Assembly (NCBI GenBank): GCA_011389575.1
Contig: JAABUB010000035.1
Coordinates: 1-33,706 of the forward strand
From: Desulfotignum sp.
GTDB taxonomy: Bacteria > Desulfobacterota > Desulfobacteria > Desulfobacterales > Desulfobacteraceae
Reading direction: 5' to 3'
Length of the DNA: 33,706 nt
This document shows positions 9,457-30,635 of the stretch, one piece after another. Made by a program: the position numbers and the translations under genes. The notes beneath the pieces were generated by a model, which saw only the letters and a list, made by a program, of their open reading frames with translations, ran no database searches and was not told where the DNA came from. The first letter of the stretch is position 1, and every line of letters starts with the position of its first letter.

Positions 9457-9471
9457 ACATCCTTAAATGAT

Positions 9472-9506: not shown

Positions 9507-9550
9507 ACGTTTAACTTCCAATCCCGGATAGAAAAAAGAGAGGATTACGG

Positions 9551-10057
9551 ATGAAAAAAATCCTGGCCGTCATTGACGGTATCAGCGAATGGAGCGGGAA
9601 AATTGTCAGTTTTCTGATTGTTTTCATCACGGCGATTCTTCTGTATGAGGTTGCCATGAGATTTGTGTTTAACGCCCCCACCAACTGGGCCCATGAGTTG
9701 ACGATGCACATGTTCGGGTTTTTGTCGGTGCTGGCCGGGGCATATGTGCTGCGTTATGATGAGCATGTGAAAATAGACATTATTTACAATCTTTTTTCTC
9801 CCAGAGCCAGGGCCATTATCGACTCTTTTACCTATCTGGTTTTCTTTTTGTTTGTCGGTTTACTGCTCTGGCATAGCACAGCCATTGCCATGTGGTCCAT
9901 AAAAATTGGACAGACTGTCTCACCTTCCCCCTGGGGATCGCCTTTGTGGCCCACCAAGAGCGCTGTGCCGGTGGCTGCCCTGCTGCTTCTTCTGCAGGGA
10001 ATCGCCCAGTTCATAAGGGTTCTCACCTTCGCAATTACTGGAAAGGAATTAAAATGA
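9551..10057 (+). CDS. dctQ: TRAP transporter small permease (DctQ)
   Basis: 168 residues with four hydrophobic segments, roughly 18-40, 52-70, 88-110 and 135-160, as expected for DctQ. The motif YDEHVKIDIIYNLF between segments 2 and 3 is characteristic of the family. It forms the membrane complex with DctM. The stop overlaps the dctM start as ATGA. Confidence 0.9.
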   Translation: MKKILAVIDGISEWSGKIVSFLIVFITAILLYEVAMRFVFNAPTNWAHELTMHMFGFLSVLAGAYVLRYDEHVKIDIIYNLFSPRARAIIDSFTYLVFFLFVGLLLWHSTAIAMWSIKIGQTVSPSPWGSPLWPTKSAVPVAALLLLLQGIAQFIRVLTFAITGKELK

Positions 10058-11370: not shown

Positions 11371-11378
11371 GAAAAAAA

Positions 11379-12386
11379 ATGCAGTTTACCAACAGCATCA
11401 CCACAGTCGACACCCATACCATGGGAGAACCCACCCGGGTGGTTACCTCGGGCATCGCCCATATCCCGGGAAAACAGATGGTGGACAAAAAGAACTGGCT
11501 TTCTGAAAACCTGGATCACATCCGGCAAATGCTTATGCTGGAGCCCAGGGGCCACCAGGACATGTTCGGGGCTGTTCTCACCGAACCCGTATCTGACACA
11601 GCCTGTGCCGGGGTAATTTTCATGGACAGCGGCGGATATCTGGACATGTGCGGTCACGGCAGCATGGGGGCCGTGACCGTGCTGCTGGAAACCGGGATGC
11701 TGAACCTGAATGCCCCGGATAAAAATGGAGAAAAGACTTTGTATCTGGATACCCCGGCCGGCCTGATCCATGCCCGGGCAGTCATGGAAAACAACCGGGT
11801 ATCCCGGGTGACCATCCGCAACCGGGAGTCGTTTTTTTGTGCATCACTGGAAATATCCATACCCCCCATAGGCACCATCCCGGTGGATATTGCCTATGGG
11901 GGAAATTATTTTGCCCTGGTGGATGCAGCCCTTCTCAAGCTGTCTGTGGAGCCGGCCAATATCGATGCATTAAAAGCCCTGGGACTTGCCATCCGCAGGG
12001 CTGTCAACCAGCAGTTCACCCCGGTGCATCCCGGTACCGGCATACCCGGTCAGGTGGCGTTGACGGAAATATATGAACACACCAGCCCGCCGCGCAACAT
12101 AGTCATATTCGGTACCGGACAGATCGACCGCTCTCCCTGCGGCACCGGCACCAGTGCCAAAATGGCATTGCTGCACCACAAAGGCCTGCTGAAACCCGGC
12201 GAACCTTATGTGTACCACAGTGTTTTCGGCACGGAATTTACCGGGGAAATCGCTGCACAAACCCAGGTGGGGGACCTGTCCGCCATTGTACCGGAAATCA
12301 CCGGAAAAGCCTTTATCACCGGATTCCACCAATTTGTTGTGGATGACACCGATCCGTATAAACATGGGTTGAATATTTACGAATAA
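11379..12386 (+). CDS. proline racemase / hydroxyproline epimerase family enzyme
   Basis: 335 residues. Both active-site cysteines are present: Cys91 in MCGHGS and Cys254 in DRSPCGTGT. This is the two-base pattern of true racemases and epimerases, unlike the 3-hydroxyproline dehydratases, which lack the first cysteine. The reaction should be inversion at C2 of proline, hydroxyproline or a close analogue such as a betaine; sequence alone does not decide. It starts 8 nt after dctM with AGGA upstream, so it is the last gene of the TRAP operon. Together with the first-gene racemase, the operon carries two different racemase folds. Confidence 0.88.
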   Translation: MQFTNSITTVDTHTMGEPTRVVTSGIAHIPGKQMVDKKNWLSENLDHIRQMLMLEPRGHQDMFGAVLTEPVSDTACAGVIFMDSGGYLDMCGHGSMGAVTVLLETGMLNLNAPDKNGEKTLYLDTPAGLIHARAVMENNRVSRVTIRNRESFFCASLEISIPPIGTIPVDIAYGGNYFALVDAALLKLSVEPANIDALKALGLAIRRAVNQQFTPVHPGTGIPGQVALTEIYEHTSPPRNIVIFGTGQIDRSPCGTGTSAKMALLHHKGLLKPGEPYVYHSVFGTEFTGEIAAQTQVGDLSAIVPEITGKAFITGFHQFVVDDTDPYKHGLNIYE

Positions 12387-14790: not shown

Positions 14791-16224
14791 TCACTGCGCT
14801 TTTTTCTGTTCCAGGGCCCTGTAAACTATATCATCAATGGCTGCGCCCTGTTTGTCCGTCACAAGCATCTGCGGTTCTTTTTCCAGCATGGCCAGGGTCT
14901 GTTCCAATGCCTTGTCCCGGATGGTTTTCGCCCCTTTCGCTTCCCATTTTTCCCAGTTGTCATGGTCGAACAGATCAGAATGCCACAATTCAGTCTTGAA
15001 ATGCGTAAAGGTGTGCTGCGAAGCCAGCAGATTGCCGCCGGGACCGGCCTGGGCAACAGCATCCAGAGCAAGGGTGTCTGCATCGATAGAAATGTCTCTC
15101 ATGGCATGGCGGATAAAGGCCATGCATTCGTTGCAGAACACCATGTCGGCATAATCCACCACCATGTCCGTGTCCAGCTGCATCCCATCCATGAGATCCG
15201 CCTTCAGGGAAGTCAGGGTCCCCACCATCCCTGTCTCGAACCCGGCCTGGGCATCCAGGATTTTTGCATCCCGCAGCATGGACGGCATGCGCACCGGCAG
15301 GTCCAAATACTGCCCCATCTGGGCCATGGCCACCTTTAATACGGCAAACTCCGGCCCTGCCATGGAAATATTGGAAGTCTGCATGTTCATACCCCTGGCA
15401 AAACTGGTGTACACAATGGGTGCACCCGGTGACACCAGCTGGGACAGGGTGATACAGGCCAGTATTTCCGCATGGGCCTGGGCCACCATACCGGGAATGG
15501 TCACAGGCCCTGTGTTGCCCTGGATCGGCCCGGAACTGAGCATGATGGGAATATGGTGCTGGTTCATGGCCATCATGGCTTCCAGAGATTCCAAGTCCAT
15601 ACCCAGGGGCGGCAGGGTCAGCACCCACCCGGAAATAAAAGGCCGTTTTAAAAATGCTTCTCTGGAGCCGGCCACCACCGCGCCCATGTCAATGGCGTCC
15701 GATACCCCCTGCTCTCCTAAGACCCCGCCGGTGATATGCTTGGTGGTGTGCTTCAGGCATCCGGCCCAGGTGTACCAGTCACACACCCGGTGGTCCACAT
15801 CCTGGGGGGTGACAGGCCCGCCGGACACCCGGATATGTTCCAGTTTATCCGACAGGTGTACCAGCCGGGCCAGATCCGCCATGGTGGCGGACCGCTTTTC
15901 CCCGGACCAGGGATCGATCACGTTGGTGGCCATGGTCATGCAGGTCAGGCCCGGATCATGGTTTTCAAAAGTCACATCCCGGTCCGGATCAAGGGCGCAA
16001 AGGCGCAGTTCTTTTCGCTTGATGGTAGTATCCAGTGCCTTTGTAACCAGATCCTCTCCTATGGACACAATATCCTTGTCCCGGATTTTTGCCCCGGCCC
16101 TGTCAAATATTTCCAGGGCTTTTGGGGAAGGAAACCGCATGCCCACATCCTGTAAAATTTTCAAGGCGGTTTTATGGAGGGTGTCAATTTCTTTTGCAGA
16201 CAGATAATCTATGGACAGTTTCAT
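14791..16224 (-). CDS. MttB-superfamily methyltransferase, non-pyrrolysine
   Basis: 477-residue relative of trimethylamine methyltransferase MttB. Recognisable segments include LHKTALKILQDVGMRF at the N-terminus, the GGPVTPQDVDHR region, HITGGVLGE and PMMLSSGPIQGNTGP-like sequence (here PIMLSSGPIQGNTGP). No in-frame amber codon exists, so it belongs to the non-Pyl group, whose characterised members demethylate quaternary amines (glycine betaine, proline betaine, carnitine) onto a corrinoid protein. No corrinoid protein, methyltransferase II or activase gene is in the window, so its partner must be elsewhere or its chemistry differs. The frame is open to 16350, but the ATG at 16224 overlaps the upstream stop as ATGA, which sets the start and implies coupling to the FAD subunit. 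Confidence 0.88.
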   Translation of the reverse strand: MKLSIDYLSAKEIDTLHKTALKILQDVGMRFPSPKALEIFDRAGAKIRDKDIVSIGEDLVTKALDTTIKRKELRLCALDPDRDVTFENHDPGLTCMTMATNVIDPWSGEKRSATMADLARLVHLSDKLEHIRVSGGPVTPQDVDHRVCDWYTWAGCLKHTTKHITGGVLGEQGVSDAIDMGAVVAGSREAFLKRPFISGWVLTLPPLGMDLESLEAMMAMNQHHIPIMLSSGPIQGNTGPVTIPGMVAQAHAEILACITLSQLVSPGAPIVYTSFARGMNMQTSNISMAGPEFAVLKVAMAQMGQYLDLPVRMPSMLRDAKILDAQAGFETGMVGTLTSLKADLMDGMQLDTDMVVDYADMVFCNECMAFIRHAMRDISIDADTLALDAVAQAGPGGNLLASQHTFTHFKTELWHSDLFDHDNWEKWEAKGAKTIRDKALEQTLAMLEKEPQMLVTDKQGAAIDDIVYRALEQKKAQ

Positions 16225-17162
16225 TTCAGGGCCTCCCTGCAGGCAAGTATGGACCGTTTCACCAGGGTCTGGGCCACATCTTTTCTGTATTCTTTTGAAC
16301 TGCGCAGATCGGAAATCGGGGATATGGCATGGGCTGCCATTCGGGCGCATTCAGCGATCACCTGGTCATCCAAAGGTTTTCCCGCCAGAAACTGTTCCGC
16401 CTCAGACACCCGCACCGGGGTGGGGGCCACAGATCCCAAAGAGATTCTGGCGGTTTCACAAATACCGTTGTTCACACTGACCCGCACAGCCGCCGATACA
16501 ACGGAAATAATTACTGCGGTCCGGGTACCGATTTTCTGGAACCAGGCAGCTTCATTGGATTTTTTCACCGGAATGCAGATATGGGTCAGCACCTGGCCCC
16601 GGGTCAGCACTGACCGGCCGGGTCCTGTGAAAAAATCAGTGAGCAGCACCTTGTGTTCTCCTCCGGCATCCCGGATAACCACCCAGGCCTCCGACACCAG
16701 CAAAGGCGGCACTGTGTCTGCGGCCGGAGAGGCCATACAGATATTGCCGCCCATGGTGGCGGTATTGCGCACCTGCAAAGAAGCCATCTGTTCCACAGCC
16801 TGTGCCAGTACCGGACAGTGGGCTTTCACCTCCGGCGACTCCAGGATCCGGGTTAAACTGACACCGGCCCCGATTTTCAGCACATCATCTGTTTTTTCTA
16901 TCTCATTGAGTACCGGCATTTTTGATATATCAATGAGATTGAGTTCCTGGTCAAAGCACCACCGGCCGGTCCTGACCGACGGAATAAAATCGGTGCACCC
17001 GGCCACCACCCTGGCACTGGTCCCATGGGCATCAACCAGGGCCAGAAGATCTTTCATCTCTTTTGGAGAATGGTACACCAGATCCGGCATGGCCCGGGAC
17101 CCGATAAAATTTTTCATGACACTGTTTTTCATGGCATTGTTTCCTGCGCTGTAGTCCGGCAT
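16221..17162 (-). CDS. molybdenum hydroxylase FAD-binding (medium) subunit
   Basis: About 313 residues, of the CoxM/XdhB/NicA-type FAD subunit family. VVAGCTDFIPSVRTG is the first FAD-binding segment and ATMGGNICMASPAADTVPPLL the second. It passes electrons from the 2Fe-2S subunit to an external acceptor. Several in-frame starts exist up to 17210; ATG at 17162 is chosen because AAAGGGGG lies six bases upstream. Starting at 17210 would overlap the small-subunit gene by 10 nt. Its stop overlaps the methyltransferase start by 4 nt. Confidence 0.88.
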   Translation of the reverse strand: MPDYSAGNNAMKNSVMKNFIGSRAMPDLVYHSPKEMKDLLALVDAHGTSARVVAGCTDFIPSVRTGRWCFDQELNLIDISKMPVLNEIEKTDDVLKIGAGVSLTRILESPEVKAHCPVLAQAVEQMASLQVRNTATMGGNICMASPAADTVPPLLVSEAWVVIRDAGGEHKVLLTDFFTGPGRSVLTRGQVLTHICIPVKKSNEAAWFQKIGTRTAVIISVVSAAVRVSVNNGICETARISLGSVAPTPVRVSEAEQFLAGKPLDDQVIAECARMAAHAISPISDLRSSKEYRKDVAQTLVKRSILACREALK

Positions 17163-17200
17163 ATTTTTCCCCCTTTGTGAAACGAGCTGTTTCATTTTTT

Positions 17201-17689
17201 CTACCACCATTCACCGGCAAGTTTTGCCTTCTGGGCGGTGTGCACCGATTTGATGATGTTGACATACCCGGTGCACCGGCACAGGTTTCCCTCCAGGGTT
17301 TTGCGGATGACCTGGTCGGTGAGCAAATTGTCCCCTGCCCGGTTGATGAGGGCATAGGCGTTCATGAGCATCCCCGGGGTGCAGAATCCACACTGGATAC
17401 CCAGCTCGTCTGTAAAGGCTTTCATCAGGGGATGGGGTTTCCCGTTTTTCACCAGACCTTCGGAGGTCATAACAGTTGCCCCCTGCACCGAAGCAGCCAG
17501 CACCAGACAGGCGTTCACCGGTTCCTCATTGAGCAAAACGGTACAGGCCCCGCATTCTCCTTCTTCACAGCTGCGGTGGACACTGGTCATGCCCCCCTGA
17601 TTTCTCAGTACTTCCAGAAGGGTCTGCCTGGCATCTACCTCAAGGGTTGTCTGTTGATTATTTAACATAAATGTCAATGGCATTTTCAT
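17201..17689 (-). CDS. molybdenum hydroxylase 2Fe-2S (small) subunit
   Basis: 162 residues with both 2Fe-2S motifs of xanthine-oxidase-family small subunits. The plant-ferredoxin-type motif is Cys41, Cys46, Cys49 and Cys61 (CEEGECGACT...C). The C-terminal four-helix motif is Cys100, Cys103, Cys137 and Cys139 (CGFCTPG...CRC). It relays electrons between the Mo centre and FAD. The order large-small-medium on one strand is a normal operon arrangement; a 96-bp gap separates it from the large-subunit gene. Confidence 0.95.
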   Translation of the reverse strand: MKMPLTFMLNNQQTTLEVDARQTLLEVLRNQGGMTSVHRSCEEGECGACTVLLNEEPVNACLVLAASVQGATVMTSEGLVKNGKPHPLMKAFTDELGIQCGFCTPGMLMNAYALINRAGDNLLTDQVIRKTLEGNLCRCTGYVNIIKSVHTAQKAKLAGEWW

Positions 17690-17785
17690 GGGTTGGTTAT
17701 CTCCATATACAGGGGGTGTTTTTTTACTACAATCTTTTTTGACGGGTGGTTTCTCATGGGTTGTATCACTTATGGTTTCAAGATA

Positions 17786-20140
17786 TCATCGATTTTTTTT
17801 TGTGGCCTGCCTGATCCATTTTCTCACCTTTTCCGGGGTGGCAGGTGCATCATTGACCCGGATGCCAAAATCCGACAATGCATCTTCGATGGCATCCAGG
17901 ATAACAGCCTTGGCTCCGATAATGGGGGCCTCGCCCATACCCTTACTGCCGGTTTCAGAAAACGGTGACGGGGTTTCCAGGTGAGCGATCTCTATGTCCG
18001 GGGCTTCCACGGCCGTGGGAATCAGGTAATTGGAAAACGAGGTGTTCATCAACTGGCCGTTTTCATCATAATTGAGACCTTCGTACAGGGCTTCCCCAAT
18101 GCCCTGGACAATCCCGCCCTGGATCTGCCCGTCCACCACCTGGGCATTTATTATGGTACCGGCATCATGCACATGCACATATTTGACAATCTGTGTCACA
18201 CCGGTGTCGATATCTACCTTTACCACGGCAATGTCCGCTGATACACAAAAAGAGGTATAGGAGGATCCGCTTTCCGGGGTGGTGGGGCTGTACCAGGTGG
18301 TGGTCACATCCAGCAGGTGGTCATGGGCCTTTAAAATCTCAGGGTCCAGGCCCCTGGGACCGGGAAAGAAAAACATCTTGTCTGCAAACTGTGCATAGGA
18401 GATCTTTTTTTCCGGTGCATCCGTAGGATAGATATATCCTTTTTCCAGCACCACCTGGTCCGCAGGAATCTTCATTAAAGAACCCGCACACTGCACCACT
18501 TTTTTTCTCAGCAGTTTGGCAGCCTTGGCCACGGCACTGGCCGGATACACCGCCCCTCTGCTGGACAAAGGGCCCTGGCCGATAAAATCGGATGTCACCC
18601 GCTTTACATGAATATGGGCCATATCCATGCCTAAGATGTCCGCCACAATGGTGGCATGGGAGATTTCCGCACCCTGCCCGATCTCGGTGCGGTCGGAGTG
18701 CACCTCGACACTGCCGTCCGGCGTGATCAGAACCCGGGCTTCTGTGATGCCCCCCATCTGGCAGTTGGGCACTGCCACCCCGGCGGGCTCGATGGCGGTG
18801 ACCAGGCCGATGCCCAGGTACCGCCCCTGGCCGGCCAGTTCCTTTTTGCGTTTCCGAAATCCCTCCAGATCCGCCATTTCAATCGCTTTGTTTAGCAGGG
18901 CCGGATAATCCCCGCTGTCCAGGACATAATTGTTGATCTGGTGATAGGGAAATTCATCCGGTTGGATAAAGTTTTTCATCCGGATCGCTTCCGGGGTCGT
19001 GTTCAGTTTTTTTGCCACCTGGTTGATGGCCGCTTCGATGAACTTGATACCCTTGTCCTTGCCATAGCCCCGGTAGGCGCAGTAAAAGGATTTGTTGGTC
19101 ACCGTGCCGATGCCTTCCACATGCATGCCCACCCACTTGTACATGTTGGTTGGCGAGGAGCAGGCCGGGAAGATGCTTAAGGCGGCAATGCCCTTGTTGG
19201 TACTTTCTACCCCCAGGTCATGATATACGGTGGCCTTGAGCCCCAGCAGGGTGCCGTCGTTCTTGAACGCAATCTTCCCGTCCCAGAAAACATCCCGCTG
19301 GTGGGGGCCGGTGGCCATAAAATCCCGGTGGGGCTCCATCCATTTCACAGGACGGCCCGTGAGCTTTGAGGCCAGGGCCACCACATTTTCCTTCCACGCA
19401 TGGATCTTCAGGCCGAATGCCCCGCCGATATCCACGGCATTGATTTTGACCTTTGCTTCGGGCATCCCCAAGGTGGCGGCAATGTTGTGTCGGGACAAAA
19501 ACGGGGTCTGGAATGATCCCCACATCTCCAGGGTATCATTTTTTGTGTCATACATCCCCACACACCCCCGGGGTTCGATGGGCACACCCGTGACCCGGTC
19601 TTCCCGGTTGAAGACCTGCAGCACCTGGTCTGCCATGGCAAACGCCTTGTCCGGGTCCCCGAAATCAAACACCAGGTGCACCTGTTTGTTGTCTTCCCAG
19701 TCATCATAGACCTTGGGGGCTTCGGGTGCCAGGGCGGTGCGCAGATCCCCTGCCAGGGGCAGGACTTCATATGCCACCTCAACCAGATCCGCTGCCTTCC
19801 GGGCGGTTTCTTCATCTTCAGCCACCACTGCCGCCACCGGCTCCCCGTGCCACCGCACCTTATCGGCAGGAATGGCATACACATCTGCCAGGCGCCAGGT
19901 CCATCCTTTGGAGGTGAAATTGGCCTGCACCGGCAGGGGCCGGGTATGGGCCGCCACCTCTTTTCCGGTGATCACCCTCATCACCCCGGGCAGGGCAAGC
20001 GCCTTTTCAATATTGATGGACACAATCCTGGCATGAGCATGGGGACTTCCCACAAACACCAGGTGGGCCATGTTGAAAAATTCCAGATCATCAGCATATT
20101 GACCTTTTCCCAGGATGAGGCGTTCTTCTCTTTTTTTCAT
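17786..20140 (-). CDS. molybdenum hydroxylase catalytic (large) subunit
   Basis: 784-residue xanthine-oxidase-family subunit that binds the molybdopterin cytosine dinucleotide or related cofactor. Seen in order: the N-terminal LGKGQYADDL, GGAFGLK (239-245), FYCAYRGYG (352-360), EIGQGAEISH, and the C-terminal GSKGMGEAP with the catalytic glutamate at 737. The CoxL-type active-site loop of CO dehydrogenase (AYRCSFR) is absent, so this is a hydroxylase of an aromatic heterocycle, purine-like compound or aldehyde, not a CO dehydrogenase. The substrate is unknown; neighbours suggest an N-methylated heterocycle. The start is preceded by AAGGAG. Confidence 0.93.
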   Translation of the reverse strand: MKKREERLILGKGQYADDLEFFNMAHLVFVGSPHAHARIVSINIEKALALPGVMRVITGKEVAAHTRPLPVQANFTSKGWTWRLADVYAIPADKVRWHGEPVAAVVAEDEETARKAADLVEVAYEVLPLAGDLRTALAPEAPKVYDDWEDNKQVHLVFDFGDPDKAFAMADQVLQVFNREDRVTGVPIEPRGCVGMYDTKNDTLEMWGSFQTPFLSRHNIAATLGMPEAKVKINAVDIGGAFGLKIHAWKENVVALASKLTGRPVKWMEPHRDFMATGPHQRDVFWDGKIAFKNDGTLLGLKATVYHDLGVESTNKGIAALSIFPACSSPTNMYKWVGMHVEGIGTVTNKSFYCAYRGYGKDKGIKFIEAAINQVAKKLNTTPEAIRMKNFIQPDEFPYHQINNYVLDSGDYPALLNKAIEMADLEGFRKRKKELAGQGRYLGIGLVTAIEPAGVAVPNCQMGGITEARVLITPDGSVEVHSDRTEIGQGAEISHATIVADILGMDMAHIHVKRVTSDFIGQGPLSSRGAVYPASAVAKAAKLLRKKVVQCAGSLMKIPADQVVLEKGYIYPTDAPEKKISYAQFADKMFFFPGPRGLDPEILKAHDHLLDVTTTWYSPTTPESGSSYTSFCVSADIAVVKVDIDTGVTQIVKYVHVHDAGTIINAQVVDGQIQGGIVQGIGEALYEGLNYDENGQLMNTSFSNYLIPTAVEAPDIEIAHLETPSPFSETGSKGMGEAPIIGAKAVILDAIEDALSDFGIRVNDAPATPEKVRKWIRQATKKNR

Positions 20141-20174
20141 GTGTACATCTCCTTATAGGCGCCTGCCTGTCGGT

Positions 20175-21734
20175 TTATTCCGGGTTCTGTTCCTTGTACA
20201 GCATTTTTGCCATCTGCGGTCCGCCCCACAGGGTGGGCAGCATGATAAACCCGACGGGCACGGCCGTGATCACGATGAATGACTGCAGGGCCCCGATTCC
20301 GCCGGCCCCCATTTTGATGAGAATGGCTGCCACCGCCCCCATGGTAATGGCCCAGAACACCCGCATTTCTCTGGGAGGATCATCTTGTCCGGTCACACAG
20401 ATGGCAATGGACAGGGACATGGAATCCCCGGTGGTGGCCAGGAAGATGAAAATCAGCACCAGAAACACTGGAATGAGCAGGCCTGCCATGGGCAGCTGGC
20501 CCACCACGGCCAGAAGCGCGGCTGGAAGCCCGGCATCATTGAGCGGCCCCGAGATCACACCAGGGTTGTTCATTTCAAAGAAAATTCCGGTTCCACCCAG
20601 GATGGTAAACCAGAAATGGGTGGCCAGCGGTGCAATCACTCCCACTGCCAGCATGATCTGGCGGATGGTTCTTCCCCGGGAAATCCGTGCCACCAGCACG
20701 GCCATCAACGGGCCATATCCCAGAAACCAGCCCCAGAAAAACACGGTCCACCAGGACAGCCACCCGGTATCTCCCCGGAAAAGGCTGAGCATGGTGAAAT
20801 CCTTGATATAGGTACCCATGGACTGGGTAAAAGTATCGATGATAAACCCGCCCGGACCGATGAGCAGAATCAATGCAACCAGGGCTACGGTCAGCAGGAC
20901 ATTGACCCTGCTCAGCATTTGGATGCCTCTATGCAGACCGGTGACAGCAGAGATGGTGTATACAATGACCAGGGAAATGATAATGGCCAGCTGGGTGATA
21001 TAGGCATCCGGGATCCCGAAAATCTGGTTCAGGGCGTAACTGATCTGGAGACCCAGAAACCCGATGGGTCCGATGGTGCCGGCAGCCACAGCCAGGATGG
21101 AACATCCTTCCGCCACCTGGCCCAGCCGGTTTTTCATGATTTTTTCTCCGAACACCGGATACAGAAGTGCCCGGGCCTGGAGGGGATGGCCTTTGTGGTA
21201 ATGCACATACATCAGCACCACCGCCCCTAACGTTCCCAGAATAGACCAGGCCAGAAACCCCCAGTGCAGAAAACTCTGCTCCATGGCCGGTACCACCGCC
21301 GCTTTGGTGGCGGATTCCACCCCGTCAAATACCGGCGGTGTACTTAAAAAATAATACATGGGTTCGGCTGCCGACCAGAAAACCCCGCCCCCGGCCAGCA
21401 GGGTACACATGATAATGGAAATCCAGCGGAAGGTACTCATCTCCGGGGTGTCGATGTTTCCCAGCCTGACACGCCCGTATCTGGAGACCGCAAGCCCCAT
21501 GGCAATAAGAAAGTTCAACAACAGCAGCCACTGCCAGTAAGCCCCGAAATAGGTGCAGGCCAGGCCGAAAAACTTATTGACCTGGCCGGACACAAATTCA
21601 CTGTTTATAAGGGAGGCAATCACAAACAGGAGTAAAAACCCTCCGCTGATCAGAAAAACAAGCCACTCCATGTTTTTCCATTGAAAACTGTTTTCTGTGC
21701 TGGCGCTTTCATTCACCGTCATGTTCCCGTCCAT
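20175..21734 (-). CDS. BCCT-family betaine/carnitine/choline-type transporter
   Basis: 519-residue membrane protein with about 12 hydrophobic segments. The BCCT signature is clear: WWTVFFWGWFLGYGPLMAV followed by ARISRGRTIRQ, and earlier GGVFWSAAEPMYYF. The family imports quaternary ammonium compounds, using sodium or proton gradients or substrate exchange. The tryptophans of WWTVFFWGW form part of the binding cage for the trimethylammonium group in characterised members. AAGGAG lies six bases before the ATG. It heads the transporter-hydroxylase-methyltransferase part of the cluster and points to a betaine-like substrate. Confidence 0.95.
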   Translation of the reverse strand: MDGNMTVNESASTENSFQWKNMEWLVFLISGGFLLLFVIASLINSEFVSGQVNKFFGLACTYFGAYWQWLLLLNFLIAMGLAVSRYGRVRLGNIDTPEMSTFRWISIIMCTLLAGGGVFWSAAEPMYYFLSTPPVFDGVESATKAAVVPAMEQSFLHWGFLAWSILGTLGAVVLMYVHYHKGHPLQARALLYPVFGEKIMKNRLGQVAEGCSILAVAAGTIGPIGFLGLQISYALNQIFGIPDAYITQLAIIISLVIVYTISAVTGLHRGIQMLSRVNVLLTVALVALILLIGPGGFIIDTFTQSMGTYIKDFTMLSLFRGDTGWLSWWTVFFWGWFLGYGPLMAVLVARISRGRTIRQIMLAVGVIAPLATHFWFTILGGTGIFFEMNNPGVISGPLNDAGLPAALLAVVGQLPMAGLLIPVFLVLIFIFLATTGDSMSLSIAICVTGQDDPPREMRVFWAITMGAVAAILIKMGAGGIGALQSFIVITAVPVGFIMLPTLWGGPQMAKMLYKEQNPE

Positions 21735-21764
21735 TTTTTACTCCTTAAAAATGTTTGAAGTTTA

Positions 21765-21775
21765 TGGTGTTACCA
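21765..21775. promoter_or_regulatory. GntR-type operator before the BCCT gene
   Basis: TGGTGTTACCA fits the TNGTNNNACNA pattern of FCD-class GntR proteins and is extended by one base pair on each side (A...T). It sits in the 68-bp gap between the PreA-like gene and the transporter, about 30 bp upstream of the latter's start, so an internal regulated promoter is likely. Confidence 0.45.
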
Positions 21776-21802
21776 TTATCTTATGGTGGTATATTTACAT
21801 GA

Positions 21803-22996
21803 TCAAACCTGCTGCATTTCTATGGTTCCCGTGACCGGGCATACGGAAAGACACCCGCCGCATCCCACACAGTTTTCTTCGTTCACATACACGGTCTCAT
21901 CCCCCTGCTGCATGGCATCGGCAAAACACACCTTCAGGCACATGCCGCAGTTGATGCATTTTTCTTTGTCCACACCGGCTTTTTCATGGGGCATATCCCC
22001 GTATTCCATGCACGCATCCGTGGCAATGCCCAGCATCTGGTCAATGGTGGCATACCTTTTTTCATCCATAAAGGTTTCCAGTCCCGCCACCTGCTTTGTC
22101 AGCCAGTCATACCCGTAGCACATGACAGCTGAACACATCTGCACGATATGGGCCCCGCTCATGATGAACATGACCACATCCCGCCAGTCATAGGCCCCGT
22201 TGGTACCGGTAATGTCCAGTTTGTCCCCCAAAGCGCACCTGACCTCATTGATCCACCGCAGGGTCAACGGTTTGGTCCAGGGACCGCCCACCCCGGCCTT
22301 GCCGTAAATCAACGGCTTGCCGGTCTCGATATCCGGCACAAACCCGATGAACCGGTTAGTGAGGGTCACGGCCCTGGCCCCGGCTTTGTGGAGCATGTCT
22401 GAAAACAGCACCAGGTCTGTCACCTGGGGAGTGACCTTAATGATGATAGGTACATTCACCGCATCAGCGACCTTTTGGGTGATTTCACACCCATAATCAA
22501 AATCCTGTCCCACGTTCATGCCGGTTCTCACCCCGGGCATCAGCTTGGGATGGGGGCAACCGAAATTCAGCTCGATCAGCGGCACCCCGCCGTCCTCCAT
22601 CTGTTTTCCCAAATCCACCCAGCCGTCCAGGGTGGTGGAGGCGATGGACCCGATGACCTGGGCATCGTGCTGACGGGCATAGGCCATGGTTTCAGTGATC
22701 TCCTTCATGAAATCTTCGGGCGGTTCCAGGGCCAGGCCCGAGCGGCTGTAAAGGCTGAAGCTTCTGGGGACCTTGCCGTGGCACACCTCGTGTCTGGCAT
22801 TGAGAAACCGCCATTTGGCCCGCTGGGTCAGCTCCCGCATGGCAGACGAGTCAGTCATGGTTTTGGCGATCACTGCTCCGGCCCCGGCATCAATGCATTT
22901 TTTCATGTTGGCGGCATTGAGGGTGGGTTCGGCCGAGGCAGCTGCCAGGGGATTTTTGAATGTTACGCCGCAAAAGGTTACACGTGTATCAGCCAT
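21803..22996 (-). CDS. PreA-like dihydropyrimidine/dihydroorotate dehydrogenase-family protein
   Basis: 397 residues. The N-terminal part is a flavin-binding TIM barrel of the PreA/dihydroorotate dehydrogenase group, with NPLAAASAEPT, LIELNFGCPH (the cysteine of this motif is the general acid/base in dihydropyrimidine dehydrogenase), IIIKVTPQV and ITGTNGAYDW. Two C-terminal 4Fe-4S motifs follow, CINCGMCLKVC and CVGCGGCLSVCP. The family reduces or oxidises C=C bonds in uracil-like rings. No PreT partner is adjacent, so electrons may come from ferredoxin. In this cluster it could reduce a hydroxylated ring made by the molybdenum hydroxylase. This is inference. Confidence 0.88.
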   Translation of the reverse strand: MADTRVTFCGVTFKNPLAAASAEPTLNAANMKKCIDAGAGAVIAKTMTDSSAMRELTQRAKWRFLNARHEVCHGKVPRSFSLYSRSGLALEPPEDFMKEITETMAYARQHDAQVIGSIASTTLDGWVDLGKQMEDGGVPLIELNFGCPHPKLMPGVRTGMNVGQDFDYGCEITQKVADAVNVPIIIKVTPQVTDLVLFSDMLHKAGARAVTLTNRFIGFVPDIETGKPLIYGKAGVGGPWTKPLTLRWINEVRCALGDKLDITGTNGAYDWRDVVMFIMSGAHIVQMCSAVMCYGYDWLTKQVAGLETFMDEKRYATIDQMLGIATDACMEYGDMPHEKAGVDKEKCINCGMCLKVCFADAMQQGDETVYVNEENCVGCGGCLSVCPVTGTIEMQQV

Positions 22997-23042
22997 GGTG
23001 TTTATCCTTGTTTTTTATGAAAGTGTTAAGTTTAGTACCTGG

Positions 23043-23088
23043 CAGCTGACAGCTAAAAGCTAACAGCTAATAGCTAACAGCTGTCAGC
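23043..23088 (-). repeat. GCTNTTA heptamer array, copy 4
   Basis: Minus-strand reading gives six units: GCTGACA, GCTGTTA, GCTATTA, GCTGTTA, GCTTTTA, GCTGTCA, then GCTG. The TAG stop of the carbon-nitrogen hydrolase (23076-23074) lies inside it, so that protein's last residues (A-D-S-C) are repeat-encoded. The outer units GCTGACAGCT and AGCTGTCAGC can pair. Confidence 0.8.
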
Positions 23089-23871
23089 CATTCCCGGGTT
23101 TAAAAACGCTTTTCTGCCGGCCAGTCCCGGAAATGTTTTCCGGGCTGCATCTGTTTTGTCAGGGTCGATAACTGTTTGAACAATTGCTTCCTCATCCCCG
23201 GCCCCGGCCACAATCGTGCCCCAGGGATCCACCACCATGCTGTGTCCCGCAAACTGAATACCGTTGTTCATACCGCAGCTGTTGGCACAGACCAGGTAGC
23301 ACTGGTTCTCCAGGGCCCGGACCCGGTTGAGCATGGTCCAGGCCGGCAGCCGGGGATAGGGCCAAGCCGAACATACGAGAAACATGGTTGCCCCCTGGTC
23401 CACCATGGCCCGGAACAGCTCCGGAAACCGCAGGTCAAAGCAGGTGGCCATGCCCATATTGCCGAACCGGGTCTCCACCACTACCGGGGTGTCCCCGGGG
23501 GTCAGAATCTGTGTTTCCTTTGAATTGTAACCGAACAAATGGATTTTCCTGTATGTGGCCAGAATAGTCCCATCCGGAGAAAACAGCACACTGGTGTTGT
23601 AGTAATTGTCCCCGTCTTTTTCCACAAAACTGCCGGTGTGCAGATAAATCTGATATTTTCCGGCCAGTTTGCCCATATTACCCACAAACGGACCGTCCAT
23701 GGTCTGGCCATCAGGCACATACCGGTCAAAACTCATGAAACCAGTCTGCCAGATTTCCGGCAGCATCACCAGATCTGCCTCCCGGCACTGATCAATGGCT
23801 TGTTGTGCTTTGTCAAAGGTGGCTGCAGGATCGTTTTCAATCACACTAAGCTGGATTGCGGCAATTTTCAT
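23074..23871 (-). CDS. carbon-nitrogen hydrolase (nitrilase superfamily)
   Basis: About 265 residues. The Glu-Lys-Cys catalytic triad is intact: Glu39 in MLPEIW, Lys109 in YRKIHLF and Cys144 in ATCFDLRFPE. The overall pattern (DLRFPELFR, NRVRALENQCYLVCAN, GHSMVVDPWG) is closest to omega-amidase/Nit2-like enzymes, which cleave amides of dicarboxylates or carbamoyl groups. In the cluster it could open or trim an amide left after ring reduction. The ATG at 23871 is chosen over 23910 because AAGGAG lies nine bases upstream. The stop is supplied by a heptamer array. Confidence 0.9.
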   Translation of the reverse strand: MKIAAIQLSVIENDPAATFDKAQQAIDQCREADLVMLPEIWQTGFMSFDRYVPDGQTMDGPFVGNMGKLAGKYQIYLHTGSFVEKDGDNYYNTSVLFSPDGTILATYRKIHLFGYNSKETQILTPGDTPVVVETRFGNMGMATCFDLRFPELFRAMVDQGATMFLVCSAWPYPRLPAWTMLNRVRALENQCYLVCANSCGMNNGIQFAGHSMVVDPWGTIVAGAGDEEAIVQTVIDPDKTDAARKTFPGLAGRKAFLNPGMADSC

Positions 23872-23917
23872 GAAAAATATCTCCTTGTCATTATCTTTGT
23901 CAAACCTCACTCACCCA

Positions 23918-24610
23918 TCAGACCATATAGTTCATGGGATGGATGCTGTAGGCAAAAGACAGTTTTCTGTCCAGAACCGGGTCGCTCAAGCTGCCTGAAA
24001 ACCGGTCCGCAAATACAAACTCCGGGGTTTGCATTTTCACGGTGCCTGAAAAAATGGCCATGTCTGTCAACGGCCCGGTCACTTTTTTTCCGACAAAGTC
24101 CAGCAGTTCAGCCGGGGACATCAACAGACCGACGGCGCCTTTCTGATAAACGATATCTCCTCCCCCTTGTTCCACCGTACATGCCATGACCAGATCGTCC
24201 CAGTGGTCTGACACATCCTGTAAATCCCAGACAACCGGGGAAACAATATTGGGGCAAATCTGCTTGGCCCGGGGAATGTCGGTTTCCTCCAGTTTTCTGT
24301 CTGTGTGGTCACTGCCGATGCCCACGTAGACCTCATTCTCATTTTTCACAAACAAAACAAACTCGATCTCTCCGGATGTCTGCTGCCCGTAAACAACGAT
24401 TCTTTCATCCGTGGTCAGAGTCGCGGGTATGACCGGATAGATCAACGGGGTTTCATCAGGCACACCAATACCTTTAGCAGACAGTTCATCCAGATGATGC
24501 CGCACCTCTTCCTGGTCCCTGCCGGTGAACCCGGCATTGACCATGCGGTCCACATGAAAATGCAGCGGGGTCTGTTTTTTATCCTTTTCAAGAAATAGCT
24601 GTATATCCAC
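23918..24610 (-). CDS. DUF2848-family protein
   Basis: About 230 residues. It matches my memory of the uncharacterised DUF2848 family, distantly like fumarylacetoacetate hydrolase folds: GFTGRDQEEVRHHLDELSAKG, SGEIEFVLF, and the hallmark IGSDHTDRKLEETDI..AKQICPN. The function is not established. The GTG at 24610 is taken as the start: AAGGG lies upstream and the stop of the cupin gene is only 14 nt away. A longer frame to 24685 would overlap the cupin gene. Its place between a cupin and a carbon-nitrogen hydrolase suggests a lyase or hydrolase step. Confidence 0.75.
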   Translation of the reverse strand: MDIQLFLEKDKKQTPLHFHVDRMVNAGFTGRDQEEVRHHLDELSAKGIGVPDETPLIYPVIPATLTTDERIVVYGQQTSGEIEFVLFVKNENEVYVGIGSDHTDRKLEETDIPRAKQICPNIVSPVVWDLQDVSDHWDDLVMACTVEQGGGDIVYQKGAVGLLMSPAELLDFVGKKVTGPLTDMAIFSGTVKMQTPEFVFADRFSGSLSDPVLDRKLSFAYSIHPMNYMV

Positions 24611-24623
24611 ATTGCACCCTTGT

Positions 24624-24968
24624 TTATTTTTTGTGATATCTGATTTCAAACGTGACACATCCCTGGGGGATACTGTAGGGACCATGGGTCATTCCCGGCG
24701 GGCGGCAGGCATAATAGCCCGGCAGATAGGTTTCTTTTTTGGCGATATCGTGAAGCGATCCTTCCACCAGGAGCACCTCTTCCCAGAAATCATGCACCAG
24801 GGTATCAGCGGTCTCAATGCCCGGGGGAAACTTAAGCATACGGGTGTAATCCCCGGTATCCGGGTCATAACTCAATATTTTCTCTTTGATGCCTAAGGTA
24901 TCGCCTTCCACATCTTTCCATTCATAGTGGGTATCATAGTCTGTAAATTCAATTTCCGGTTTTGCCAT
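24624..24968 (-). CDS. small cupin-domain protein
   Basis: 114 residues forming one cupin barrel: FPPGIETADTLVHDFWEEVLLVEGSL, then PPGMTHGPYSIPQGCVTFEIRY. The histidines near the centre (LVHDFWEE, MTHGPY) could bind a metal. It resembles small ChrR/DUF4437-type cupins. An isomerase, lyase or sensing role is possible, but none can be assigned. AGGAGG precedes the ATG, and the gene overlaps the GntR gene by 20 nt, so the two are co-transcribed. Confidence 0.72.
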   Translation of the reverse strand: MAKPEIEFTDYDTHYEWKDVEGDTLGIKEKILSYDPDTGDYTRMLKFPPGIETADTLVHDFWEEVLLVEGSLHDIAKKETYLPGYYACRPPGMTHGPYSIPQGCVTFEIRYHKK

Positions 24969-25635
24969 TGGTTTTTTCCTCCTGTTTGCTTTGTTTGACA
25001 GCCAGTTTGCTGTATTCCAGATGGGTTTCCATCAACTGCATAGCCTCTGCGACCTGTCCTTTTATTACTGCAGCCAGTATGGCATCATGCTCTGAGACAA
25101 CCGTCTGCATCCGCCCGGCGATCCCTAACGCCTTGAACCCCATCAGGTGCATGATATCTCTGATATCCTGCATCATCTCCATAAGATATGCATTTTCTGT
25201 CAGCCGGGTAAACATGATATGAAAATTGCGGTCCGCTTCCATGAATGCCACTGCATTTTTTTTCTGCGCCGCATCTTTCTGGGCCTGTAAGAAATTGTTC
25301 AGCCCGGAGATATCCAGGGTTTTATGGTTGATGCAGGCTTTTTTAATGGAAAAAACCTCCAGCGCTGTCCGGATCTCAAACACATCCTCGATCTCTTTGT
25401 CAGAAAAGGTGTTGATGATCACCCCTTTCTGGGGCAAAAATTTAATCAGACGCTTTGAGGAAAGTTCCAGCAGGGCTTCTCTCACCGGGGTCCGGGAGAT
25501 CCCCAGATCTTTTGCCAGACTTTTTTCATTGTACACTACATCTGCGGTGAGTTCATTGGTGAGAATGGAACGGCGCAATACCTTGAGGGCGGTTTTTGCC
25601 AGTGGCTCAGATTTTCTGATTTTGGTCAACCCCAT
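24949..25635 (-). CDS. GntR-family (FCD) regulator of the betaine-like cluster
   Basis: About 228 residues. The winged helix (NEKSLAKDLGISRTPVREALLELSS) is followed by an FCD domain with EADRNFHIMFTRLTENAYL. It is strikingly similar over its whole length to the GntR protein at 31979-32653 (shared stretches include LGISRTPVREALLELS and DIRDIMHLMGFKAL), so the two are paralogues. The start is set at MGLTKI, conserved in both and nine bases after GGGGAG; an ATG at 25641 is too close to that site. It is the first gene of the minus-strand run and overlaps the cupin gene. Confidence 0.92.
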   Translation of the reverse strand: MGLTKIRKSEPLAKTALKVLRRSILTNELTADVVYNEKSLAKDLGISRTPVREALLELSSKRLIKFLPQKGVIINTFSDKEIEDVFEIRTALEVFSIKKACINHKTLDISGLNNFLQAQKDAAQKKNAVAFMEADRNFHIMFTRLTENAYLMEMMQDIRDIMHLMGFKALGIAGRMQTVVSEHDAILAAVIKGQVAEAMQLMETHLEYSKLAVKQSKQEEKTNGKTGN

Positions 25636-25641
25636 GCGCAT

Positions 25642-26138: not shown

Positions 26139-27239
26139 ATGAAACATACCATTAAAACCATTTCAAGTTTCCTGTGTGCGATTTTTGCGGTCGGCCTGAT
26201 TTTTTCAGCGGCAGACAGCCATGCGGCCAAGGATGTTATCAAGTGGAAATATAACTCCTTGTGGCCCTCGGGCTTTGCTCTGTATGAGGCTGATAAGTAT
26301 TTTGTTGAAACGGTTAACAAATTAAGCGACGGACGTCTGCAAATCAAGCTTTATCCGGCCGGACAAATGATAGCGGGCCACCAGAATTTTGATGCCGTCA
26401 AAAAAGGGACCATGGAATTGGCTGGGGACTTTGGACCTTACTGGGCGGGCAAAAATACTGCGTTCGATCTTCTGGGCACAACCCCCATGGGAATGACATG
26501 GATTGATTACATACTGTGGATTTATCATGGAGGTGGCCAGAAAATTTATGATGAACTTTACGGGGAACACAACATCAAATGGCTGCTTGAATCAATGACC
26601 CCGGTGGAATCAGGCTTCCGCACCAATGTTCCGATCAAAAGCTTAGAGGATTTTGAAGGACTGAAGCTTCGTATGGGGAGTCTTTTCGGCCAGAGGATAC
26701 TCGAAAAATTAGGAGCTTCACCCATAATGATGGACGGCAGTGAGATATACGAAGCTGTATCCAGAGGGGTAGTGGATGGAGCGGAATTCAGCGTTCCGGC
26801 GGTGGACTGGTCGGCAGGCTTTCAGGAAATTGCTGACTACTGGTGCGCTCCGGCCTGGTATCAGACGGCAATTGTTCTGGGCATCATGATAAACAAGGAT
26901 GCATGGGAAGCCCTGCCTGATGACCTTAAAGAAGTCGTCATACAGGCAAGCCGTGCCAGTACGGCTTATATGAGCTCATGGTTTGAGTATCAGAATATAG
27001 AGGCGACCCAAAAATTTTTGGAAAAAGGAATCAAGATAACCAGCCTGGATGATTCAGCCATGCAGAAACTCCAGGGAATTATCAACGAAGTCCTTGCCGA
27101 AGAAGCCAAAAAAAATCCTGATTTCGCAAAAGTTTTGAAATCCCAGATCCAGTATATGAAAGACTTTGCACCTGTGCGTGCTTATGAAAAACCTTATACT
27201 TTCGGTTTCAACCCTGAAAGCTATCCGGAACTTCCTTAG
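26139..27239 (+). CDS. dctP: TRAP transporter substrate-binding protein (DctP), second system
   Basis: 366 residues with a signal peptide: hydrophobic IFAVGLIFSAADSHAA, cleavage near residue 30. The DctP fold is shown by LYPAGQMIAGHQNFDAVKKGTMEL-type sequence and by Arg178 in GLKLRMG, the usual carboxylate-binding position. AGGGGAAAG precedes the ATG. Downstream DctQM and a GlcD/GlcF-like pair suggest a 2-hydroxy acid such as lactate or glycolate as substrate. It is only distantly similar to the first DctP, so a different ligand is expected. Confidence 0.93.
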   Translation: MKHTIKTISSFLCAIFAVGLIFSAADSHAAKDVIKWKYNSLWPSGFALYEADKYFVETVNKLSDGRLQIKLYPAGQMIAGHQNFDAVKKGTMELAGDFGPYWAGKNTAFDLLGTTPMGMTWIDYILWIYHGGGQKIYDELYGEHNIKWLLESMTPVESGFRTNVPIKSLEDFEGLKLRMGSLFGQRILEKLGASPIMMDGSEIYEAVSRGVVDGAEFSVPAVDWSAGFQEIADYWCAPAWYQTAIVLGIMINKDAWEALPDDLKEVVIQASRASTAYMSSWFEYQNIEATQKFLEKGIKITSLDDSAMQKLQGIINEVLAEEAKKNPDFAKVLKSQIQYMKDFAPVRAYEKPYTFGFNPESYPELP

Positions 27240-27262
27240 TATCTGCAAATTTCTCGGTGATG

Positions 27263-27300
27263 ATATGGATTCCTGGAAGTATTTGTCCGGGAATCCATAT
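27263..27300 (+). terminator. hairpin after second dctP
   Basis: ATATGGATTCCTGG (27263-27276) pairs with CCGGGAATCCATAT (27287-27300), 14 bp with one G-U, across a 10-nt loop, followed by TTATTT. It is placed exactly as in the first TRAP operon, between dctP and dctQ. The T tract is imperfect, so it may be a weak terminator or an RNA-stabilising stem. Confidence 0.65.
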
Positions 27301-27337
27301 TTATTTAAAGATATAGAAGACTGGAAGGATAACTCGT

Positions 27338-27847
27338 ATGACCATGGTTAACAAACTGCTTTCACTCATAGATACGACAAATGAGTGGATAGGAAGAATC
27401 TTTGCCTGCCTGATTATTCCGCTGATGTTTCTGATTGTTTTCGAAGTATTCACAAGACGTATTCTGGGCAATCCCACAGTCTGGACCTTTGAAGTAATCA
27501 TTCAGTTATATGCTGCGCTTTTCATGATGGCGGCCCCGCTTACCCTGCTGTACAACAAGCATGTCTCTGTTGATATTTTTGCCTCGAAACTGTCTCCGAA
27601 AAAACGGGCGGTTATTGATATTTTAACTTATCTTATCTTCTTTTTCCCTTTTGTACTGATTCTGTTTAACGAGGGCTATGAATATGCGATGCTGTCCTGG
27701 GAATTATTGGAGAAAAAACACTCGGCCGGCTTTGCCATGCCCATATATCCCCTTAAAACCGTGATTCCTGTCACAGCTTTTCTGCTTTTTCTGCAGGGAA
27801 TCTCTATTGTTATCAAAAAAATTATATTTTTAAAAACTGCGAGGTAG
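27338..27847 (+). CDS. dctQ: TRAP transporter small permease (DctQ), second system
   Basis: 169 residues with four hydrophobic segments, starting with FACLIIPLMFLIVFEVF and including ALFMMAAPLTLLYNKHVSVDIFASKL, the family's conserved loop after segment 2. It pairs with the DctM that follows without a gap. The start ATG at 27338 follows GAAGGA at a suitable distance. Confidence 0.9.
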   Translation: MTMVNKLLSLIDTTNEWIGRIFACLIIPLMFLIVFEVFTRRILGNPTVWTFEVIIQLYAALFMMAAPLTLLYNKHVSVDIFASKLSPKKRAVIDILTYLIFFFPFVLILFNEGYEYAMLSWELLEKKHSAGFAMPIYPLKTVIPVTAFLLFLQGISIVIKKIIFLKTAR

Positions 27848-29176
27848 ATGATGTCACCAGAAACGATTCTTCCAATTCTCATGTTCGTTCTGCTCATCAT
27901 AGGATTGTTGATGGGGCACCCTCTGGCCTTCACGCTGGGCGGACTGGCGGTTATCTTCGGATACGTGGGCTGGGGACCGGAAGCTTTCGGCATGTTTATA
28001 AACCGCATATATTCCTCGGCCATGAACAATTATGTTCTTATTGCCGTGCCGCTGTTTGTCCTGATGGCCAACTTCCTGGACCAGTCAAGAATAATGGAAG
28101 GTCTTTTTAATTCCATGCGTTACCTTTTCGGTCCGGTGCGCGGCGGTGTTGCCATAGCAGTTATCGTGCTGGGTGTGATTTTTGCCGCATGCACCGGTGT
28201 AATAGGCGCATCCGTTGTAACAATGGCTTTGCTTGCCACGCCCCCGCTTCTGCAGTACGGCTACCGCAAAGAGCTTATCGCAGGCACTATCTGTGCAGGC
28301 GGCACTCTCGGGATACTTATTCCTCCGAGCATAATGCTCGTTCTGATGGGTTCCTACAGCGGCATACCCGTGGGAAAGCTTTTTATGGCTGCCATAATCC
28401 CGGGAATGCTTCTTTCATCCCTCTATCTCATATATGTTATTGCCAAATGCTGGATAAATCCGGACTGGGGCCCGGCCCTGAGTAAAAAAGAAAGACAGGA
28501 TATAACAACAAAGCAGATTCTGATAGACTGTCTGAAAAATTTAATCCCCCCGGTTTTGCTTATCCTCTCTGTTCTGGGCTCAATTTTTGCCGGCGTTGCT
28601 ACCCCTACGGAAGCTGCGGGAATGGGTGCCTTTGTTGCTTTTTTGATGATGATTTTCTACGGCCGTTTTTCCTGGAAGGCCCTGTGGCAGTCTATTGTTT
28701 CAACAACCACGGTAACCTCTATGGTTCTTATGATCGTTGTGGGCGGCACCTGTTTTACCGGCGTGTTTATTGGCCTTGGGGGAGATGAACTGGTCTCTTC
28801 CATGATACTGGGCATGGGCAGCAAATGGGCATCGTTTGCACTTATGATGATCATCGTTCTGGTTTTGGGCATGTTTATCGACTGGATCGGCATTACAATG
28901 ATATGTCTGCCTCTGTTTGTACCCATAGCCGCTGATCTGGGCTTCAATCCAGTATGGTTTGTAATGATGATTGCCATCAATCTGCAGGCCTCCTTTCTGA
29001 CTCCGCCGCTCGGATATTCATTTTTCTATTACAAGGGTGCCGGCGGGGCCACCGATAAAATCAGCATGATGGAGATTTACCGCGGTATTATGCCGTTTAT
29101 CTTCCTCATGATCATAGGCCTTATGCTCTGTATTCTGATCCCCGGGCTCACCTTGTGGCTGCCGAGTCTGATGTAG
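27848..29176 (+). CDS. dctM: TRAP transporter large permease (DctM), second system
   Basis: 442-residue protein with about 12 hydrophobic segments. Motifs are GHPLAFTLGG, GGTLGILIPPSIML, GVATPTEAAGMGA and the C-terminal FLTPPLGYSFFYYKGAG. The gene begins directly after the dctQ stop. Two tandem ATG codons at 27848 and 27851 could both serve as the start. Confidence 0.93.
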   Translation: MMSPETILPILMFVLLIIGLLMGHPLAFTLGGLAVIFGYVGWGPEAFGMFINRIYSSAMNNYVLIAVPLFVLMANFLDQSRIMEGLFNSMRYLFGPVRGGVAIAVIVLGVIFAACTGVIGASVVTMALLATPPLLQYGYRKELIAGTICAGGTLGILIPPSIMLVLMGSYSGIPVGKLFMAAIIPGMLLSSLYLIYVIAKCWINPDWGPALSKKERQDITTKQILIDCLKNLIPPVLLILSVLGSIFAGVATPTEAAGMGAFVAFLMMIFYGRFSWKALWQSIVSTTTVTSMVLMIVVGGTCFTGVFIGLGGDELVSSMILGMGSKWASFALMMIIVLVLGMFIDWIGITMICLPLFVPIAADLGFNPVWFVMMIAINLQASFLTPPLGYSFFYYKGAGGATDKISMMEIYRGIMPFIFLMIIGLMLCILIPGLTLWLPSLM

Positions 29177-29246
29177 ATGCAAAACCCTGTCAGGCTGCAA
29201 TTTTTGAAACCACCGCGGCACTGCCCTGCCGTTTGAGGAGAATAAA

Positions 29247-30620: not shown

Positions 30621-30635
30621 GGAATTTGGCCTAAT

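Follow-up and report, generated by a model that had tools for sequence, protein, structure and literature searches.

The window analysed here is a 33,706-nucleotide contig of a Desulfotignum sp. genome (JAABUB010000035.1, our contig C96; the host genome is 83% complete, in 163 contigs). Ten genes lie on its minus strand at 14791–25641 with short gaps or overlaps, and we consider them here as a candidate operon for the anaerobic breakdown of an N-methylated pyridinium carboxylate. Their one-strand order and families, read from the letters alone in a first-pass annotation, were confirmed by open reading frame (ORF) positions and Pfam matches. From first to last, the genes are:

24949..25641, minus strand: GntR/FCD regulator, first of the run (Pfam FCD and GntR; 74–96% identity across four Desulfotignum loci)
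24624..24968, minus strand: small ChrR-type cupin, a conserved companion of the ring genes (Pfam Cupin_7)
23918..24685, minus strand: DUF2848 protein, candidate for a ring-opening or hydrating step (Pfam DUF2848)
23074..23910, minus strand: carbon-nitrogen hydrolase (Pfam CN_hydrolase)
21803..22996, minus strand: PreA-like flavin and iron-sulfur protein, candidate ring reductase (Pfam DHO_dh and Fer4, 4Fe-4S)
20175..21734, minus strand: BCCT-family transporter (Pfam BCCT, 491.8 bits, cut-off 27)
17786..20140, minus strand: molybdenum hydroxylase, large subunit (Pfam MoCoBD_1/2)
17201..17689, minus strand: molybdenum hydroxylase, small [2Fe-2S] subunit (Pfam Fer2, Fer2_2)
16221..17210, minus strand: molybdenum hydroxylase, medium FAD subunit (Pfam FAD_binding_5, CO_deh_flav_C)
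14791..16350, likely start 16224, minus strand: MttB-superfamily methyltransferase (Pfam MTTB, 311.8 bits, cut-off 25)

Alignment with relatives, several of which begin at Met43, makes that residue the likely start of the methyltransferase (hereafter MttB), giving 14791–16224. By alignment too, the true start of the DUF2848 protein is probably near 24610, downstream of the longest-ORF start, and that of the hydrolase is probably also downstream of its longest ORF's.

Recurrence of the gene run

A scan of genome contigs returned eight loci, four of which (the Desulfotignum loci L009, L012, L013 and L015) carry all ten genes in identical order. Three more (L010, L011 and L016) are contig pieces whose order agrees over the genes that they hold, and one, from Desulfobacula (L014), is a variant arrangement. 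The close relatives of the host are Desulfotignum metagenome genomes; parts of the gene set are kept in other families of the order, so the check on conservation of the neighbourhood did not refute the first-pass idea. In the same-genus genome G503, neither PreA (E ≤ 1e-60) nor MttB (E ≤ 1e-100) was matched, so that at these thresholds the operon is accessory. The genome of L013 also holds a second, diverged copy of the hydrolase-PreA-BCCT-hydroxylase (large, small, medium)-MttB run (L106, 1–7928), with PreA 85% and an MttB piece 53–57% identical to those of the window. Plasmid relatives were distant: the best 20 of 195 MttB records reached at most 28.9% identity (all 195 were below 60%), the best 20 of 171 PreA records, many annotated preA, at most 32.9%, and the best 20 of 943 large-subunit records at most 34.6%.

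The methyltransferase and its transporter

The MttB frame has no in-frame stop, which makes the protein a non-pyrrolysine member of its family. It scored 326.4 bits against the trimethylamine methyltransferase model TIGR02369, under the equivalog cut-off of 525, and its best PDB match was glycine betaine methyltransferase (9yce and 2qne, 191 bits). In the MttB tree it falls in a 12-row clade with support 100/100, within which MttBs linked to the ring genes interleave with MttBs linked to a BenE-family transporter gene. The clade is 22–31% identical to ten host MttB rows (nine distinct, one host MttB having been entered twice as L004 and L071) and to one row from G436 (labelled L066_G000par); the L062 row is a fragment, and for outlying rows of both this tree and the PreA tree the program gave long-branch warnings. 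The host paralogue L004 (contig C85:16396–17811) has one in-frame TAG within a long MTTB match and is possibly a pyrrolysine-type enzyme.

At the level of the order, PreA matches were found in 6 of 242 genomes, host counted. The MttB clade stands at PreA in four of the five non-host genomes: it is adjacent in G371, G406 and G485, and TRAP genes lie between the two in G380. It is not at the PreA of G436, where a BenE-like gene (about 35%) separates two partial PreA genes, an N-terminal piece at 73% identity and a C-terminal-type piece at 34% (L067, 9200–12153). MttB-carrying PreA neighbourhoods thus occur in four genomes of three other families, plus Desulfobacula. The contig of G371 runs PreA end, MttB, BCCT, hydroxylase large, small and medium subunits, TRAP and an MtgA-like gene (69%). 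The MttB-linked PreAs form one clade (10 rows, support 95/89, one change), recovered in 94% of bootstrap trees. The PreA tree omits the fragments L064, L065 and L067 as well as the G007 PreA (L043), which ORF calling missed; L063 was labelled MttB-linked since its other half sits on L064 with MttB.

When the order was searched with MttB instead (E ≤ 1e-100), 7 of 242 genomes matched: the host, G371, G380, G406, G485, G453 and G469. For the last two, the order-level search gave no PreA match, and the stretch read contained no ring genes. Both have GntR, MttB and BCCT together with a BenE-family transporter gene (Pfam 242 and 247 bits). In G453 this run also encodes an MttC-like corrinoid protein and an MtgA-like enzyme; in G469 the corresponding pair of genes is on that contig too, at a distance of about 8.6 kb. 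With MttB and BCCT present and the ring module not found, MttB in these genomes most simply acts on the compound imported by BCCT, and the neighbouring BenE suggests a benzoate-like product. In a wide draw of the phylum (E ≤ 1e-120), the host was the only one of 395 genomes in which the MttB clade was found; few of the drawn genomes belong to the order.

The transporter gave 16 matches in four genomes. Four of these adjoin MttB and are 59–100% identical to that of the window (59–67% in G371, G453 and G469), whereas the twelve others are at 31–38%; its best PDB match is a trimethylamine transporter. The host genome has 11 MTTB matches and three corrinoid-domain matches; one of the latter shares contig C154 with an MttB fragment and an MtgA-like gene (MttC–MtgA pair, 54% and about 50%).

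The ring module

The fifth gene had been called a PreA-like reductase. Its Pfam domains fit this family and its best PDB match is dihydropyrimidine dehydrogenase; it scored 235.8 bits against the NCBI PreA model NF006183, under the equivalog cut-off of 335. Pig Cys671 and Thr737, which we take to be the catalytic cysteine and a substrate residue, align with C147 and R215; the cysteine is kept, and threonine is replaced by arginine in all 14 rows printed, window counted. From its aligned position, Arg215 could contact a carboxylate of the substrate. A changed catalytic cysteine, which followed from placing pig Cys671 in the GQD loop, was ruled out, as Ala/Ser variant chains mark the cysteine of NxxCPH, which is conserved.

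The hydrolase is closest in the PDB to 1f89 (YLR351C, 130 bits) and 2w1v (nitrilase homologue 2, 127 bits), which we take to be NIT3 and an omega-amidase-type enzyme, respectively; among NCBIfam models it scores highest with deaminated glutathione amidase (138 bits, under the cut-off of 355). The DUF2848 protein had no match among PDB sequences up to E 10. When aligned by hhalign with 21 sequences of the fumarylacetoacetate hydrolase (FAH) family it gave probability 80.9 (E 1.3e-5), with seven control families at or below 0.8 (and probability 18 when only three FAH sequences were used), so that it is probably a remote FAH relative. In L040 (5138–6217) cupin and DUF2848 are fused in a protein of 359 aa, which suggests that the two act together. 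Plasmids hold 56 DUF2848 records; in the five neighbourhoods read, an amidase was present in four, a cupin-type gene in three, GntR in two and an HpaB-type monooxygenase in two. In the plasmid clusters L018 and L020, DUF2848 is accompanied by an amidase, an HpaB-type flavin monooxygenase, a cupin-type gene and genes for branched-chain ABC transport, perhaps forming an aerobic counterpart of the ring opening. A search of the open-access literature found no papers on DUF2848.

All three subunits of a xanthine-oxidase-family hydroxylase are encoded. The large subunit ranks quinoline 2-oxidoreductase first in the PDB (1t3q, 391 bits), followed by CO dehydrogenase (361), aldehyde oxidase (163) and xanthine dehydrogenase (129).

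Across the phylum, a PreA-like protein (E ≤ 1e-60) was found in 15 of 297 genomes, host counted. Among the 14 non-host genomes, 10 have DUF2848 and/or the carbon-nitrogen hydrolase near PreA (both in eight), 10 have the cupin (50–87% identity), 10 have all three hydroxylase subunits, and eight have TRAP DctP and DctM (at merely 24–25% identity in L039). Neither MttB nor BCCT was found in any of the 14 PreA neighbourhoods (0/14 each); some of these stretches are short contigs, where absences are weak. The gene set therefore splits: a ring module of cupin, DUF2848, hydrolase, PreA-like protein and some molybdenum hydroxylase occurs without MttB and BCCT, often with TRAP. The co-occurrence of all modules, which the first-pass annotation proposed as a check, is seen in the four Desulfotignum loci; the ring module and the MttB-BCCT pair also occur apart.

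A rival reading is that of two separate, co-located functions, in which MttB and BCCT take a methyl group from an ordinary aliphatic betaine and the ring module degrades an unmethylated N-heteroaromatic acid. The 14 of 14 neighbourhoods without MttB would fit, as would the glycine betaine methyltransferase as nearest solved relative of MttB and the fact that BCCT and MttB are not always together. We nevertheless consider it unlikely, given that the MttB clade accompanies PreA in Desulfobacula and in four genomes from three further families, that MttB is so far (22–31%) from the other host MttB rows tested, and that a BenE companion fits an aromatic acid.

Some MttB-less clusters carry further genes. 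One strand of L038 holds two molybdenum hydroxylase sets, of which the second was recognised by eye across split ORFs, then TRAP, cupin, DUF2848, hydrolase and PreA, and after these two 2-oxoacid:acceptor oxidoreductase subunits, both scoring below the cut-off of their best NCBI models; the L038 PreA is sister to the MttB-linked PreA clade (support 91/88). In L049 the module lies opposite three genes: a PrpF-family gene (best PDB match 3-methylitaconate isomerase 3g7k, 345 bits, next 217; best NCBIfam model 4-oxalomesaconate tautomerase, 326 bits, below the cut-off of 440), an aconitase-family large subunit, and a PEP-mutase/isocitrate-lyase-type gene (petal death protein 256 bits, dimethylmalate lyase 211). 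We liken this trio to the lower part of nicotinate fermentation (presumably Mii, DmdA and a lyase), a suggestive resemblance. Further clusters add ProC (over its cut-off) and genes of the ornithine-cyclodeaminase, FAD amino-acid-oxidase and glutamate-dehydrogenase families. In L046, a PreT-like protein (2–1252; Fer4_20 and Pyr_redox_2) is encoded near DUF2848 and a PreA-like gene, and may be the electron donor that is missing from the window. In L044, a PurH-like (AICARFT) gene at 15542–16867 lies inside a ring-module run in which DUF2848 was not found.

The substrate might instead be another N-methyl azolium or purine-type betaine, with the PreA-like and Nit-like enzymes acting much as in reductive pyrimidine breakdown. 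PreA with a nitrilase-superfamily enzyme is the pyrimidine pairing, and the PurH-like gene in the L044 run also speaks for this reading. We regard this as improbable, a little more so than separate functions: no amidohydrolase-family (dihydropyrimidinase-type) gene is among the ten, PreA is under the NCBI cut-off with Thr737 changed to arginine, and the hydrolase is nearer Nit2/NIT3 (127–130 bits) than the PDB entries named beta-ureidopropionase (90 and 25 bits).

Proposed route and substrate

From gene content, conservation, clade coherence and linkage, which are observed, we infer every reaction, the reaction order and the substrate. On balance, the operon probably degrades an N-methylated pyridinium carboxylate without oxygen, with homarine slightly favoured and trigonelline possible. 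The MttB-linked PreA clade and the BenE-linked MttB and BCCT together suggest that the betaine, once imported, probably loses its methyl group to give a benzoate-like N-heteroaromatic acid, and that this acid would then enter the ring module. BCCT would import the betaine. MttB would transfer the methyl group from the nitrogen to a corrinoid protein, leaving the free pyridine carboxylic acid, and an MtgA-like enzyme would then pass the methyl group on to form methyl-tetrahydrofolate. The molybdenum hydroxylase would put oxygen beside the ring nitrogen, and the PreA-like enzyme would reduce the ring, its arginine perhaps binding the carboxylate. DUF2848 with the cupin, and the Nit2-like amidase, would open the ring and release ammonia, taking picolinate to 2-oxoadipate; the acid would then enter central metabolism.

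The idea of a pathway for an N-methyl heterocycle thus gains at the level of compound class, from MttB and BCCT beside BenE in two genomes, whereas the original step order, with hydroxylation ahead of demethylation, has to be revised: demethylation most simply, and probably, comes first. The same ring pathway could have MttB acting late, on a tertiary amine formed after ring hydroxylation and reduction. Methanogen MttB does demethylate a tertiary amine, and some molybdenum hydroxylases act on N-methylpyridinium compounds. However, G453 and G469 have MttB and BCCT with no PreA match or ring genes in the stretch read, and we consider a late MttB very unlikely.

As to the ring, none of the 12 MttB-carrying genomes (host 83% and G485 79% complete, five without a completeness figure) gave a homologue of 3-methylitaconate isomerase at E ≤ 1e-20, against three of the nine other genomes searched. 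Indirectly, and taken with the Nit2-like hydrolase and the L038 oxidoreductase genes, this result leads us to lean to a picolinate-type ring and hence to homarine.

Several observations weigh against the proposed reading of the operon. The clades of MttB, BCCT and hydroxylase are not consistently found as a set: MttB occurs without BCCT beside Liv-type ABC genes (L107) or TRAP (L061), and the hydroxylase at these two loci is of another clade (28–29% identical to that of the window, versus at least 72% where BCCT is present), so that neither BCCT nor the hydroxylase clade of the window is strictly tied to MttB. No corrinoid or MtgA gene is among the ten, and BenE membership does not fix the cargo. 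The proposed comparison of the large subunit with heterocycle hydroxylases was favourable by PDB ranking but not by family model: the top NCBIfam match, glyceraldehyde dehydrogenase alpha, has 486 bits against a cut-off of 790, and CO dehydrogenase (475) and xanthine dehydrogenase (360) follow, none over cut-off. The best NCBIfam match of the small subunit is glyceraldehyde dehydrogenase gamma, under cut-off, and solved nicotinate dehydrogenase chains score low against the large subunit (107 and 105 bits). The surroundings of the L037 PreA, a protein 70% identical to that of the window, contain none of the module genes, and near the PreAs of L039, L042 and L050 both DUF2848 and the hydrolase are missing. 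Several MttB-less clusters carry two hydroxylase sets or other genes, from which it appears that ring-module substrates vary. Finally, the L049 aconitase-family subunit passes the NCBI 3-isopropylmalate dehydratase LEU2 cut-off (649 versus 611), so that leucine synthesis is possible for this dehydratase.

Further genes flank the operon. A second GntR gene at 31979–32671, facing TRAP and GlcD/GlcF-type dehydrogenase genes (26139–32671), is about 65% identical to the operon GntR by cross-comparison with relatives, and the two may therefore sense related ligands. On the other side, Asp/Glu racemase-like, TRAP DctPQM and proline racemase-family genes lie at 7564–12386, and are downstream of the operon in L012, L013 and L015 too. 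Proline betaine or hydroxyproline betaine as substrate, raised by the proline racemase-family gene (11379–12386), was set aside because it explains neither the molybdenum hydroxylase, the ring reductase nor BenE.

In the nicotinate fermentation of Eubacterium barkeri, nicotinate dehydrogenase, 6-hydroxynicotinate reductase and enamidase are followed by Mii, DmdAB and Dml. PMC9304392 describes hydroxylation beside the nitrogen, partial ring reduction and hydrolytic opening, and the proposed logic of the operon is the same. Unlike the E. barkeri system, the operon has a PreA-type reductase, a Nit2-like hydrolase, DUF2848 and an added demethylation; it has no amidohydrolase-family gene, and the Mii homologue is the isomerase found in 0/12 MttB-carrying genomes. 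Reductive pyrimidine degradation uses PreTA, hydantoinase and ureidopropionase. The operon shares with it a PreA-like and a nitrilase-superfamily enzyme, but has no PreT or hydantoinase among its ten genes, adds a molybdenum hydroxylase, and has a PreA under cut-off with arginine for Thr737. The demethylation unit resembles the non-pyrrolysine corrinoid systems (MtgB, MtpB, MtcB, MtyB) in its MttB family and in the MttC- and MtgA-like genes linked to it in relatives. Unlike the MttBs named in the portions of the literature consulted (for glycine betaine, proline betaine, carnitine, gamma-butyrobetaine and choline), it is linked to a ring module or BenE.

Homarine is known from marine animals. 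PMC12817926 describes it as an osmolyte at high concentration in a marine diatom, and its aerobic catabolism in environmental bacteria, in which Mgd takes part, has been published (Nat Microbiol 2026, as cited in PMC13390433). That pathway possibly has the same substrate as the operon. No anaerobic gene set for the breakdown of homarine or a methylated pyridine acid was found described in the open-access literature; each enzyme family is known, and it is the combination and the proposed substrate that were not found there.

Tentatively, and with less expectation than for the pathway class as such, this could be the first gene set for anaerobic homarine breakdown. A new MttB subfamily would demethylate an aromatic N-methylpyridinium, and a new PreA/DUF2848/Nit2-like module would replace 6-hydroxynicotinate reductase and enamidase. 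In sulfate reducers, carbon would flow via 2-oxoadipate and the methyl group would end up as methyl-tetrahydrofolate; the module would also serve pyridine carboxylates without MttB in other members of the phylum. If true, homarine turnover in anoxic settings would become directly testable through a defined operon, corrinoid demethylation would extend to aromatic N-methyl compounds, and roles would follow for DUF2848 and for a set of PreA-like reductases similar to pyrimidine enzymes.

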